Positions 55,427-59,826 of a DNA stretch of 64,000 bases are shown one piece after another; the first letter of the stretch is position 1; each line of letters starts with the position of its first letter. The position numbers were made by a program, and so were the translations under genes. A model generated the notes under the pieces. The model ran no database searches. It saw nothing but the letters and a program-made list of their open reading frames with translations, and had not been told where the DNA came from. This DNA comes from Hyphomonadaceae bacterium ML37 (lineage in GTDB: Bacteria > Pseudomonadota > Alphaproteobacteria > Caulobacterales > Maricaulaceae), in contig CP091241.1 of assembly GCA_027627685.1 (NCBI GenBank), positions 891,149-955,148 on the forward strand, given 5' to 3'.

Positions 55427-56440
55427 ATGCCAGCGATGAACATTATTCAGGCGCTGAACTCGGCGATGGACGTGCTTCTGGACACCGACCCGGACGTCAT
55501 CATCTTCGGCGAGGATGCCGGCTATTTCGGCGGTGTGTTCAAGGCCACGGACGGGCTGCAGGCGAAATACGGCCTCGACCGGGTGTTTGATGCGCCCATC
55601 AACGAGGCGGCCATCGCGGCCATGGCCATCGGCATGGCGGCGCGGGGGCTCAAACCCATCGCGGAGATCCAGTTCGCCGATTATATCTTTCCCGCCATTG
55701 ACCAGATCGTGTCGGAGATGAGCCGCATCCGCTACCGCTCGGCGGGCCAGTTCACGTCCGGGTGCGTGGTGCGCAGCCCCTGGGGCGGCGGCATCCGTGG
55801 CGGCCAGACCCACTCCATGAGCCCGGAAGCCTTCTTCACCCATGTGCCCGGCCTGCAGGTGGTGGTGCCGTCCAACCCCTATGACGCCAAGGGCATGCTA
55901 ATCGCGGCGGTGGAGAGCGGTGATCCGGTGATCTTTTTTGAACCCAAGCGCATCTATAATGGCCCGTTCGACGGCGTGCCCGACAAGCCGCTCGCCTCCT
56001 GGGCGCGCCATCCCAAGGGCGAGGTGCCCGAGGGTCGCTACACGGTGGAGCTGGGCAAGGCCGAAGTGGTGCGCGAAGGCTCGGCCTGCACGCTCATCAC
56101 CTATGGCACGCTGGTGCATGTGGCCGAGGCCGCAGCCGAGCATTCGGGCCTTGATGTGGAGATCATCGATCTCAAATCGCTGGTCCCCTACGATATCGAG
56201 ACCATCGCCGCATCGGTGAACAAGACCGGACGGGTGGTGGTCGCCCAGGAGGCGCCGCGCACGTCCGGCTTTGCCGCCGAGCTGGCCGCCCAGATCCAGG
56301 AAGAATGCTTCTACGCGCTGGAAGCGCCGATCTTCCGCCTGACAGGATGGGACACGCCCTATCCCCACGCCCATGAATGGGCCTATTTCCCGACGCGCGA
56401 CCGCATGATCCGCGCGCTGAAAACCGTCACGGAGGCCTGA
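55427..56440 (+). CDS. bkdA2: Branched-chain 2-oxoacid dehydrogenase E1 beta
   Basis: 337 residues. MNIIQALNSAMDVLLDTDPDVIIFGEDAGYFGGVF and GLDRVFDAPINEAAIAAMAIG belong to E1 beta, which helps bind TPP and joins E1 alpha in an alpha2beta2 tetramer. GGGIRGGQTHSMSPEAFFTHVPGLQVVVPS and the C-terminal LTGWDTPYPHAHEWAYFPTRD are BCKDH-like. It is 2 bp after E1 alpha and clearly co-transcribed. Confidence 0.96.
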   Translation: MPAMNIIQALNSAMDVLLDTDPDVIIFGEDAGYFGGVFKATDGLQAKYGLDRVFDAPINEAAIAAMAIGMAARGLKPIAEIQFADYIFPAIDQIVSEMSRIRYRSAGQFTSGCVVRSPWGGGIRGGQTHSMSPEAFFTHVPGLQVVVPSNPYDAKGMLIAAVESGDPVIFFEPKRIYNGPFDGVPDKPLASWARHPKGEVPEGRYTVELGKAEVVREGSACTLITYGTLVHVAEAAAEHSGLDVEIIDLKSLVPYDIETIAASVNKTGRVVVAQEAPRTSGFAAELAAQIQEECFYALEAPIFRLTGWDTPYPHAHEWAYFPTRDRMIRALKTVTEA

Positions 56441-56444
56441 AGCC

Positions 56445-57815
56445 ATGGCCGAATACACCTACAAGCTTCCCGATGTCGGCGAGGGCGTGGTCGAGGCCGA
56501 GATCGTCGAATGGCACATCAAGGAAGGTGACAAGGTCGTTGAGGACCAGCACATCCTGGATGTGATGACCGACAAGGCGACGGTAGAAATCCCCTGCGCG
56601 GTCAATGGCGTGGTGAAAAAGATCGTTGGCGAGCCCGGCGAGGTGCTGGCCGTGGGCACGGTCATCCTGGTGATCGAGATCGATGGGACGGCTCCGACGG
56701 AAGATGACGCGCCGGCCCCGGCTAAGGGTGAGGCCAAAGCGGATTCGTCACCTCCCCCGCCTGCGGAGGAGGTGTCCGCGAAGCGGACGGAGGGGGGAAG
56801 CGCCGCTTCCGAAAAACCCGACGCGCCCAAAGCCTCAGCTGCCCCCTCCGTCCCGGGTCAAGTCCGGGACACCTCCCCCGCAAGCGGGGGAGGAAAGGGT
56901 GCTGCGCCTGCCCCGTCACGCCCCTCCGGCGAGCGTCCGCTGGCGAGCCCCGCCGTGCGTCAGCGCGCGCTGGAGGCGGATATCGATCTGTCCGCCGTGC
57001 CGGGCTCCGGTCCGGCGGGACGGGTGACCCATGATGATCTGGATGATTTCATCGCCTCGGGCGGGCGGCTGGCGTCGCGTGCGGGCGCCACTGCACCGGG
57101 CCGTGCGCCGCGCACCGGGACCGAGACGATCAAGATCATCGGCCTGCGCCGCAAGATCGCCGAGAACATGGCGCTGGCCAAGCGCACCATCCCCCACATC
57201 GCCTATGTGGAGGAGATCGACCTCACCGCGCTGGAAGACCTGCGCGCCCATCTCAATGCTTCGCGTAAAGAGCGCCGCGAGAAGCTGACCATCATCCCCT
57301 TCCTGGTCACGGCGCTGACCAAAGCGGTCGTGGACGTGCCCCAGGCCAACGCCCATTACGACACCGAGAACGCGGTGCTCACTCAGTATCAGGGCGTGCA
57401 TTGCGGCATCGCCGCGGCCACGCCCAAGGGCCTGATGGTGCCAGTGATCCGCCACGCCGAGGCGATGGACATCTGGCAGATCGCCGCCGAGGTCAAACGC
57501 CTGGCCGAAGCTGCGCGCACCGGCAAGGCGACCAAGGAGGAGCTGTCAGGCTCCACGATCACGATCACCTCGCTGGGCGCCATGGGCGGCATCGTCACCA
57601 CGCCGGTGATCAACCATCCCGAGACGGCGATCATCGGCGTCAACAAGCTGCAGGTCCTGCCGCGCTATAACGCCGAGGGCCAGATCACGCCGCGCAAGAT
57701 CATGAATCTCTCCTCCAGCTTTGATCACCGCATCGTGGACGGCTACGAAGCCGCCCGCCTGATCCAGGCGGTGAAAGCCTATCTGGAGCATCCCGCGACG
57801 CTTTTCATGGAGTAG
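56445..57815 (+). CDS. bkdB: Dihydrolipoyl acyltransferase E2 of the branched-chain complex
   Basis: 456 residues. One lipoyl domain (1-78; lipoylated Lys44 in VMTDKATVEIP), a long linker (about 80-160), a peripheral subunit-binding domain (about 165-203, LASPAVRQRALEADIDLSAV) and the acyltransferase core with His428 and Asp432 (HRIVDG). The linker DNA holds two inverted palindromic repeats translated in frame (about residues 102-118 and 133-150), ending up as Pro/Ala/Gly-rich peptide. The start is 4 bp after E1 beta. Confidence 0.96.
   Translation: MAEYTYKLPDVGEGVVEAEIVEWHIKEGDKVVEDQHILDVMTDKATVEIPCAVNGVVKKIVGEPGEVLAVGTVILVIEIDGTAPTEDDAPAPAKGEAKADSSPPPPAEEVSAKRTEGGSAASEKPDAPKASAAPSVPGQVRDTSPASGGGKGAAPAPSRPSGERPLASPAVRQRALEADIDLSAVPGSGPAGRVTHDDLDDFIASGGRLASRAGATAPGRAPRTGTETIKIIGLRRKIAENMALAKRTIPHIAYVEEIDLTALEDLRAHLNASRKERREKLTIIPFLVTALTKAVVDVPQANAHYDTENAVLTQYQGVHCGIAAATPKGLMVPVIRHAEAMDIWQIAAEVKRLAEAARTGKATKEELSGSTITITSLGAMGGIVTTPVINHPETAIIGVNKLQVLPRYNAEGQITPRKIMNLSSSFDHRIVDGYEAARLIQAVKAYLEHPATLFME
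56749..56796 (+). repeat. Palindromic repeat inside bkdB, unit 1
   Basis: CACCTCC...GGAGGTG (56749-56774) followed by GTCCGC-GAA-GCGGAC (56774-56788) and GGAGGGGG. Read in frame it encodes SPPPPAEEVSAKRTEGG. It is the inverted counterpart of unit 2. Confidence 0.8.
56841..56893 (-). repeat. Palindromic repeat inside bkdB, unit 2 (inverted)
   Basis: CCCCCTCC then GTCCCGG-GTCAAGT-CCGGGAC (56850-56870) and CCTCCCCCGC-AA-GCGGGGGAGG (56872-56893). The layout is that of unit 1 read backwards. Translated it gives APSVPGQVRDTSPASGGG. Confidence 0.8.
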
Positions 57816-57841
57816 GGGGGCCTAAAGCCCTTCATCCTTAT

Positions 57842-57960
57842 TTGTTTTCCCGGGCGAGCGGAGCGAGACCCGGGATCCATCCACCAAGCCTCTCCAAAGC
57901 ACAGGCGGTCCAAACCTGACGGGATGGGTCCCGGATCGGCTACGCCGTCCGGGAAAACAA
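57842..57960. repeat. Inverted pair of GTTTTCCCGG palindromic repeats
   Basis: TTGTTTTCCCGG (57842-57853) and CCGGGAAAACAA (57949-57960) are perfect inverted copies. Inside, CCCGGGATCCATCC and GGGATGGGTCCCGGATC mirror each other, so two full units face each other. It lies between bkdB and the lipoprotein gene and may reduce transcription into lpd. Confidence 0.75.
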
Positions 57961-58053
57961 GTTTGGTGGAGCGGAGTCTTGTGCCCCCGCTTCCCCTTCG
58001 CCCCGCAAACCCTCATGATCAAGCCGCGTCAACCAGCCCCAGGAGCACCCCCC

Positions 58054-58317
58054 ATGCGTATCGCGCTCGCCGTTCTCGTGATCCTGCTGGCCCTGACCGG
58101 CTGCGCCGAGCCTGTGGCGGGCGGGGTGCAGGCGGGGGCGCCGGGCTTCCTGTATGGTCTGGCCCATGGATTCCTTCTGCCCTTCACCTTCATCGCCGGG
58201 TTTTTCATGGAGGTGGCGGTCTACGCCTCGCCCAATAATGGCTGGCCCTATGATCTGGGCTTTCTGATCGGGGTGATGGTGTTCTTTGGCGGCTCGGCCG
58301 GGTCGGCGCGGCGGTAG
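58054..58317 (+). CDS. Small lipoprotein/membrane protein
   Basis: 87 residues. MRIALAVLVILLALTGCAEP is a type II signal peptide with lipobox LTGC, so the mature protein starts at Cys17. Two further hydrophobic segments (FLYGLAHGFLLPFTFIAGFF and LGFLIGVMVFFGGSAGS) follow. AGGAG at 8 nt. It sits between E2 and E3 but has no known link to the complex. Not recognised by name. Confidence 0.75.
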   Translation: MRIALAVLVILLALTGCAEPVAGGVQAGAPGFLYGLAHGFLLPFTFIAGFFMEVAVYASPNNGWPYDLGFLIGVMVFFGGSAGSARR

Positions 58318-58398
58318 GGAAGGCGCTGCCGGGTTCCCCTCGGAGCGCTGACCGGTTAGATCGGGCGCGATATCCTCTTGAGCCAAAAGGACGCCCCC

Positions 58399-59826
58399 AT
58401 GCCCCAGCGCCAAACCCGCCAATGTCAGGTTCTCGTCGTGGGTGGCGGGCCGGGCGGATACCCGGCTGCGATCCGCGCGGGGCAGCTGGGGCTGGACACG
58501 GTGATCGTGGACAAGGCGGGGCTGGGTGGCACATGCCTTAATCGCGGCTGCATCCCGTCGAAAGCCTTCATCCACGCCGCGTCGAAGTTCGAGGAGATGC
58601 GCCATCTGGCGGATAAGGCCGACATGGGCCTGTCGCTCAGCGCGGCGCCGCAGCTCGACATGGCGGGGCTGACGGCTTGGAAGGACACCATCGTCAACAA
58701 GCTCACCAAGGGCGTGGGCCAGCTTCTCAAAGCCGCCAGGGTCGAAGCGGTCAATGGCTGGGCGGTGTTTAGAAACGCCAAAACCTGCGTGGTGACGCTG
58801 GCCGATGGCGGCGAGCTGGAGATCACCGCCGAGCACGTGATCCTGGCCACGGGGTCGAAGGAAACCGAACTGCCCTTCATGAAGTTCGGCGGCGCGGTGA
58901 TCGGATCGACCCAGGCGCTGGAGCTGACCGAGCTGCCGCAAAAACTGGTGGTGGTCGGCGGCGGCTATATCGGGCTGGAGCTGGGCATCGCGTTCCGCAA
59001 GCTCGGCAGTGCGGTGACGATGGTCGAAGCGCTCGACCGCATCGTGCCGCTCTATGATTCCGAGCTGACGCGCCCGGTCACCATGTGGCTGAAGAAGAAC
59101 AAGGTCGATCTCCACCTCAAATCCAAGGCCAAGGGCGTGGTGGAGGAGGGCGGAAAGACCTTCCTGGAGTTCGAGACCGCAAACGGCGAGACCCAGCGTA
59201 TCGAAGCGGACAAAATCCTGGTTTCGGTGGGCCGCAAGCCGGTCACCGAGGGCTGGGGGCTGGAAACCATGGGCGTCGATATGGACGGGCCGTTTGTGAA
59301 GATCGACGGCCAGTGCCGCACCGCCATGCGCGGCGTCTACGCCATTGGCGATCTGACCGGCGAGCCGTTGCTGGCGCACAAGGCGACCGCGCAAGGCGAA
59401 GCCGTGGCCGAGATCATCGCCGGGAAGAAGCGCCGCTTTGATCCCGCCGCCATCGCCGCGGTGTGCTTTACCGAGCCCGAACTGGTGGGCGCCGGGCTGA
59501 CGCCGGATGAAGCGAAAGCCAAAGGCGAAGAGGTGATCACCGGCAAATTCCCGCTGGCGGCGTCAGGCCGGGCGCTGACCATGGAGGGCGGCGCCGATGG
59601 CGGCTTTGTGCGCGTCACCGCGCGCAAGAGCGATCATGTGATCCTGGGCATTCACGCCGTGGGCAAGCATGTGTCCGAGCTGTCGGGCGAGTTCGCCCTG
59701 GCGCTGGAAATGGGCGCGCGTCTGGAAGACATCGCGGGCACGATCCACGTGCACCCGACGTTGACCGAAGCCTTCGCCGAAAGCGCGCTGGCCGCCCTGG
59801 GCCACCCGATCCACATCTCCGCCTGA
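58399..59826 (+). CDS. lpd: Dihydrolipoyl dehydrogenase (E3)
   Basis: 475-residue flavoprotein that reoxidises E2 dihydrolipoamide with NAD. FAD motif VLVVGGGPGGYPAA, redox disulfide Cys46/Cys51 (GGTCLNRGCIPSK), NAD motif LVVVGGGYIGLELGIAF, the second FAD block GVYAIGDLTGEPLLAHKA, and the C-terminal HVHPTLTEA with the catalytic His. AAGGA at 7 nt supports ATG 58399; a TTG upstream is less likely. It is last in the bkd cluster. Confidence 0.96.
   Translation: MPQRQTRQCQVLVVGGGPGGYPAAIRAGQLGLDTVIVDKAGLGGTCLNRGCIPSKAFIHAASKFEEMRHLADKADMGLSLSAAPQLDMAGLTAWKDTIVNKLTKGVGQLLKAARVEAVNGWAVFRNAKTCVVTLADGGELEITAEHVILATGSKETELPFMKFGGAVIGSTQALELTELPQKLVVVGGGYIGLELGIAFRKLGSAVTMVEALDRIVPLYDSELTRPVTMWLKKNKVDLHLKSKAKGVVEEGGKTFLEFETANGETQRIEADKILVSVGRKPVTEGWGLETMGVDMDGPFVKIDGQCRTAMRGVYAIGDLTGEPLLAHKATAQGEAVAEIIAGKKRRFDPAAIAAVCFTEPELVGAGLTPDEAKAKGEEVITGKFPLAASGRALTMEGGADGGFVRVTARKSDHVILGIHAVGKHVSELSGEFALALEMGARLEDIAGTIHVHPTLTEAFAESALAALGHPIHISA

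Follow-up and report, generated by a model that had tools for sequence, protein, structure and literature searches.

A palindromic element resembling REP doublets in frame in the E2 linker of a bkd-type 2-oxoacid dehydrogenase of Hyphomonadaceae bacterium ML37

The Pro/Ala-rich linker of a bkd-type E2 subunit in Hyphomonadaceae bacterium ML37 harbors, in frame, a REP-doublet-like and apparently non-autonomous palindromic element, which is predicted to be translated together with its host protein and probably has a history of entry, retention and replacement. The element was examined in a 64,000-nucleotide stretch of DNA (hereafter the window), in the complete genome of the strain and in the corresponding regions of related bacteria.

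The gene for the E2 subunit (dihydrolipoamide acyltransferase, 456 aa) occupies positions 56445..57815 on the plus strand of the window, after an E1-beta-like ORF, and its product matched PF00364, PF02817 and PF00198. The Pfam matches delimit a lipoyl domain (Biotin_lipoyl, residues 7-77; 56463..56675, plus strand), an E3-binding domain (E3_binding, residues 165-199; 56937..57041, plus strand) and the acyltransferase catalytic domain (residues 226-455; 57120..57809, plus strand). The closest named matches of the protein belong to an alphaproteobacterial MAG and to Alkalicaulis, Oceanicaulis, Glycocaulis, Marinicauda and Maricaulis, which places the host among these bacteria. As the initial annotation had described, two inverted copies of the element lie in frame between the lipoyl and the subunit-binding domains, which the ORF, the alignment of the arms and the Pfam domains all support. 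Copy 1 (family A; 56751..56796, plus strand) has one stem mismatch and is read as about PPPPAEEVSAKRTEG, and copy 2 (family A with a longer second hairpin; 56842..56893, minus strand) is read as about PSVPGQVRDTSPASGGG, both being recovered by the hairpin pattern, BLAST and the covariance model. The 45-nt spacer separating them (56797..56841, plus strand) encodes K/E/P/A residues, resembles the host linker and differs from the intergenic spacers seen. The inverted arms (56751-56777 and 56867-56893) measure 27 nt and are 93% complementary, and the hairpin pattern matched four times, once per strand at each of two places, and had no match in any of 100 shuffles. The pair starts at 56751 and not at 56749, where the annotation had placed it; in place of its estimate of about 35 encoded residues, the pair together with its spacer spans ~48 codons, ~33 of them in the two units. 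Directly downstream of the E2 gene, a further inverted repeat with 15-nt arms (TTGTTTTCCCGGGCG / CGTCCGGGAAAACAA) extends over 57842-57960; its core has a single copy in the window, and a CCCGG-type stretch resembling it was seen by eye in the L372 region of a related genome (G001).

The same element is dispersed through the host genome (3.04 Mb, single contig). Each family A unit is composed of a hairpin CCTCCCCCGC-NN-GCGGGGGAGG, followed by a T, a second variable hairpin and GGAGGGGG. BLAST of the element against this genome returned 40 matches, the element pattern 22 (none for the reversed control pattern), and a covariance model built from 22 units yielded 39 matches at E<=0.05, with 31 at E<1e-4, which were grouped by hand into 18 A/B places. 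At 15 of these 18 places the units form pairs within ~210 bp, start to start, with opposite orientation in 15/15; the second unit is weaker in two pairs (E 3.9e-4 and 0.004), and the spacer reaches 164 nt in one. The other half of a pair is often a sister type B (CTCCCCCCGC..), and a third type C (CCCTCCCC-NNNN-GGGGAGGG) has 5 copies distributed over 4 places, with no match for its reversed control. Changes on both sides occurred in 7 of 15 stem pairs and 97.8% of the stem alignment cells pair, values that none of 500 shuffles attained, and one of the five covariation measures, further pair types, was matched by 83 of the 500. The element is therefore a short dispersed palindrome, with 18 A/B and 4 C places, predominantly intergenic and arranged in inverted pairs with a short spacer, as in REP doublets or BIME-like repeats. 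The expectation of the annotation that it would prove to be an intergenic repeat held, since 18 of the 22 places were classed as intergenic and 4 as in frame in recognised genes, a classification made by inspecting the ORFs and not with a gene caller, in which some places under long ORFs were judged to be shadows.

The means of dispersal was sought in several ways. A search of 55500-58500 against Rfam at gathering thresholds gave no match. Inspection of the element alignment by eye detected no GTAG end tag, a CGTC-like motif being present on the reverse strand of some rows only, and no target duplication was evident by eye, the pair-free linkers being too diverged for placing junctions. A RAYT (Y1_Tnp) gene was absent from 15/15 genus genomes and present in 5/41 of all genomes searched, with a search control that was positive in 5 of 14 known genomes, including E. 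coli and Caulobacter. Mobilisation by a RAYT was consequently rejected for the genus. The absence of this gene counts against the explanation that we favor, as does the lack of any exactly placed junction or target duplication.

Apart from the bkd E2 gene, which was the starting observation, three of the four in-frame places in the host genome fall in other recognisable genes. An A pair lies in the Pfam-confirmed gene of the PDH E1-beta subunit with an N-terminal lipoyl domain (pdhB; genome positions 1816147-1816282), a C pair in the adjoining PDH E2 gene, named by homology (aceF; 1814176-1814297), and an A/B pair in the Pfam-confirmed glyS (1033321-1033429). Lipoyl linkers account for three of the four in-frame places, and the glyS doublet is a case outside lipoyl proteins: its alignment with 7yse_C, a Gly-tRNA ligase beta subunit of solved structure, covers GlyS residues 1-256 and 298-367 and does not cross the insert. 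In both bkdB and glyS the element is in frame in a gene whose relatives lack it, a trait expected of Rickettsia palindromic elements.

Comparison of the 15 genus genomes (the host being G000) exposed a variable distribution. The BKD E2 linker bears an A pair in G000, G001, G009, G005 and G011, one full unit, at contig edges, in G006 and G003, and no element in G012, G013, G002, G010, G014, G008, G007 and G004. Insertion-free forms, which the annotation had proposed to seek among relatives, do exist, G012 and G013 among them, and its reading of a dispersed repeat standing in frame in a tolerant linker is upheld; its further claim, that the host gained sequence and kept function, may also apply. 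Over the E3-binding plus catalytic part, the DNA of G012 and G013 shares 92% identity with that of G000, which implies that gain and loss, or linker exchange, took place inside the clade. The frame used for copy 1 gives SPPPPA.. in G000, G001 and G009, and a different frame gives SSPASGGG in G005 and G011, pointing to separate insertions or to one insertion plus a later indel. The PdhB linker (seen in all 15) carries A in G000, G013 and G009 and C in G001 and G006. In the AceF linker, G000, G001, G012 and G011 have C pairs, G009 has an A pair that has decayed, and G010 has one C unit; the scoring leaves out G013 (apparently split between contigs) and G006 (not seen). Taken together, the BKD E2, PdhB and AceF linkers contain one or more units in 9/9 genomes with at least eight model matches (a single unit in G010), and in 1/6 genomes with three or fewer (G012, type C). 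The BKD E2 linker of G026, a genome from another family of the same order, has a similar pair with the order of its members reversed. The E2 gene of the cultured relative Alkalicaulis satelles (L082) likewise carries the pair. Neither an A nor a C unit was found in the SucB-like E2 linkers of 14/14 genomes (G004 left out), by which the notion that any flexible lipoyl linker will do was rejected.

Such occupancy bears on whether positive selection for linker length or flexibility led lipoyl linkers to recruit ready-made Pro/Ala/Gly-rich peptides, an explanation that we regard as unlikely. It would accommodate the occupation of three kinds of lipoyl linker (BKD E2, PDH E1-beta and PDH E2) and the longer linkers of carriers among the E2 loci L081-L105 (mostly Maricaulales), in which just 3 carriers with complete linkers measure 79, 86 and 90 aa and 20 non-carriers have a median of 66. 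However, the medians are nearly equal in L106-L160 (74 in 20 carriers, including two GC-repeat artefacts, vs 71 in 35 non-carriers), the glyS product is no lipoyl protein, and the SucB-like linkers are unoccupied. The lengths in L081-L105 suggest partial replacement of host linker over pure addition.

Elsewhere in the genomes, sites appear to be kept while their content changes. In glyS, a C pair of G001 stands at the site of the A/B pair of G000, and at the intergenic sites near 2480348 and 2174270 the site is kept and the content differs among G000, G001 and G009. Flanks are shared with an element place of the host genome in 5/10 G001 stretches with elements (L369, L371, L372, L373 and L377), of which L377 corresponds to the glyS site and L372 aligns by one flank only, with the G001 unit ~600 nt away; among the five without shared flanks, L374 gave weak matches only and was read as paralogous. 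The same holds for 3/8 stretches of G009 (L383 by one side) and 1/2 of G013. We infer from these comparisons that sites persist while the repeats in them are exchanged. Re-insertion and conversion are both candidate routes, which the sharing of flanks does not separate. The G001 glyS gene (L377, G001:C20:36700-39800) contains two separate in-frame doublets, the C pair and, further on, a B/A pair, and in the host GlyS (L006) the stretch after ALGVIKVVI is longer than in, and divergent from, the G001 protein. An avoidance of Arg-rich frames was considered and dropped, as the second G001 glyS insert uses an Arg-rich frame.

At the nucleotide level, synonymous sites in the coding arms show unusually high conservation. 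Corresponding coding pairs were compared in 12 genome pairs and three genes (the G005/G011 set gave no pair), and differences amounted to 26/504 nt in the arms, 343/864 in the stretch between arms and 301/1209 in the flanking linker. At fourfold sites they amounted to 3/114 in the arms, vs 105/358 in other linker and 617/2468 in the domains; as the arm comparisons share genomes, their p-values are overstated, and because units were located with at most three mismatches to the motif, decayed copies like that of G009 aceF are not covered. Between G000 and G001, the 54 insert codons show 3 synonymous and 6 nonsynonymous changes (dN 0.045, dS 0.092; vs dN 0.030 and dS 0.299 in the E3-binding plus catalytic part), a sample too small to support a conclusion. 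Such conservation at fourfold sites is not expected from passive translation unless the copies are homogenised. One rather unlikely explanation is that the hairpins are kept for a role as nucleic acid, for instance as paired mRNA hairpins that slow ribosomes for folding or lipoylation, or that tune mRNA stability. The low divergence of the arms would agree with it, as would the strong fold of the E2-linker repeat region (z = -7.0) and the gene-specific loop variants that recur across species (PdhB), which also argue that the most abundant genomic copy has not recently overwritten the others. Yet the hairpin can be lost, as in G009 aceF, where the peptide is kept and the hairpin decayed, bkdB of G012 and G013 has no element at all, and concerted evolution between copies would conserve the arms too, besides the sharing of genomes and the mismatch threshold already mentioned. 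Both hairpin selection and concerted evolution are possible causes of the conservation of the arms.

Linkers of more distant E2 genes were analyzed in 80 loci chosen by homology alone. Hairpins with stems of at least 9 numbered 28 in the 80 linkers (16.8 kb) vs 59 in the remaining 531 kb, and 50 synonymous shuffles of the linkers produced a mean of 2.5 and a maximum of 6. These figures weigh on the idea that chance palindromes or the codon bias of GC-rich Pro/Ala/Gly linkers account for the pattern with no mobile element. Some alanine/proline-rich linker hairpins do look so, namely L142 and L146, which resemble GC-repeat artefacts among the 18/80 hairpin-bearing linkers, and L341 of the class-wide survey below; but the shuffles fall far short of the 28 observed and the same sequences are dispersed in genomes, with reversed controls of 0, or 1 in one genome, so that this idea is barely credible and was rejected.

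Within the 55 loci of L106-L160, two of which are archaeal MAGs, the repeat S1 (CCCTCCCGC..GCGGGAGGG, at most two mismatches) was found in 6 linkers and S2 (CCCTCTCCCCT..AGGGGAGAGGG) in 5, the two occupying one site of the Sphingopyxis E2 linker, after AETPG... S1 has 20-81 copies in 13/13 genomes examined, including those with an S1-free linker, and S2 has 15-35 copies in the 5 genomes with S2 in the linker and 0-6 in the remaining 8; controls with the reversed pattern gave 0, except 1 for S1 in one genome. The abundance of S1 even where the linker is free of it counts against the favored explanation. Exact matches to A, S1, S2 and S3, the last of which we take to be a common sphingomonad repeat, numbered 26 inside the linkers of the 80 loci and 0 outside, a result partly by construction, as these patterns were read from the same linkers; type C gave 0 exact matches in linkers and 3 outside. 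The Sphingopyxis trees, whose DNA version omits 11/55 rows, require 6 (S1), 4 (S2) and 5 or 6 (S3) changes, and their starred branches force just 1-2, 1 and 3-4, respectively, leaving the number of insertions uncertain. The E2 linker of a Sphingomonas MAG (L128) has a possible weak inverted pair, CCTCCCCGGGACGGGGAGG / CCTCCCCGTCCCGGGGAGG, as a candidate repeat. Two MAGs titled Euryarchaeota (L107 and L111) encode E2 proteins 48-49% identical to that of the window, through either transfer or mislabelled bins.

A class-wide draw of 134 genomes, 111 of them with a PdhB match at E<=1e-90, allowed the loci of 110 to be read (G124, a distant match, was left out). Of these 110 genomes, 95 yielded at least one linker (76 PdhB and 78 AceF, 154 linkers) and 15 yielded none. 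The linkers contained 6 hairpins in 29 kb, 5 from the host genome and one of alanine/proline type in L341, and the loci outside linkers 21 in 402 kb; beyond the host genome, none of these PDH linkers carried a repeat pair. The possibility of a general alphaproteobacterial trait was rejected by this survey, and linker doublets are limited to some lineages. Taken with the empty SucB-like linkers, the empty class-wide PDH linkers indicate that tolerance alone may not suffice.

Under the favored explanation, the doublet would have entered as one unit, or two copies would have come to flank host linker, and it would have been retained because disordered lipoyl linkers presumably accept Pro/Ala/Gly/Ser-rich peptides. 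A site might later exchange an older copy for a newer one, through re-insertion or through conversion by a copy elsewhere in the genome, and the linker sites would then become lasting docking sites with a content varying from species to species. More tentatively, and with some doubt on our part, the BKD and PDH lipoyl-adjacent linkers could be recurrent REP-doublet docking sites in at least two alphaproteobacterial orders, where families replace one another and the hairpins are held at the nucleotide level, either through selection for a DNA or RNA role or because coding and noncoding copies evolve in concert. These linkers provide a replicated natural experiment on dispersed repeats becoming protein, with different families in the same linker of sister species and versions without any, and their variants make target preference, tolerance and selection separable. 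They also warn that 'disordered' linker stretches in core enzymes can be recycled repeats.

A REPIN consists of two short palindromes in inverted orientation, separated by a spacer. The element shares this arrangement with REPINs and RAYT-associated REPs, but it has two hairpins per unit, no Y1_Tnp in the 15 genus genomes and no GTAG end by eye. Like Rickettsia palindromic elements, as the main text of PMC3733652 presents them, it consists of palindromes translated in frame inside genes. Its membership in one of their families would fit the occurrence of in-frame palindromes in an alphaproteobacterium and the classing there of RPE-4 and RPE-6 with REPs; it is nevertheless very improbable, since a unit of two hairpins that is usually paired and usually intergenic is unlike RPE-1 as described in that text. 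With the bacterial MITEs mentioned there (ERIC, RUP and NEMIS; PMC3733652) it has in common a small size, inverted ends and no transposase gene, but no target duplication was seen by eye for the element. Overall, it resembles REP doublets. Di Nocera et al. (2013), in the main text of PMC3733652, report REP palindromes in dimers, mostly intergenic and some wholly inside ORFs, propose that intragenic REPs may be neutral where they fall in flexible linkers or loops, and describe recB as hit at about the same site in two Xanthomonas species; to that extent, repeats of this kind are already known. The terms 'lipoyl' and 'dihydrolipo' have no match in that main text, as distinct from its list of target ORFs (Additional file 3, S. 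alaskensis included), which lay outside the search and may hold an E2 entry, and small palindromic repeats joined to lipoyl linkers were not found in the literature searched, whose scope left out most subscription journals and the same gene list. The element thus has in common with the intragenic REP dimers of that main text the dimeric palindromes, mostly intergenic and in part inside ORFs, and differs from them, as described there, in the concentration on one linker class, with several families, in two orders, and with swaps between sister species.
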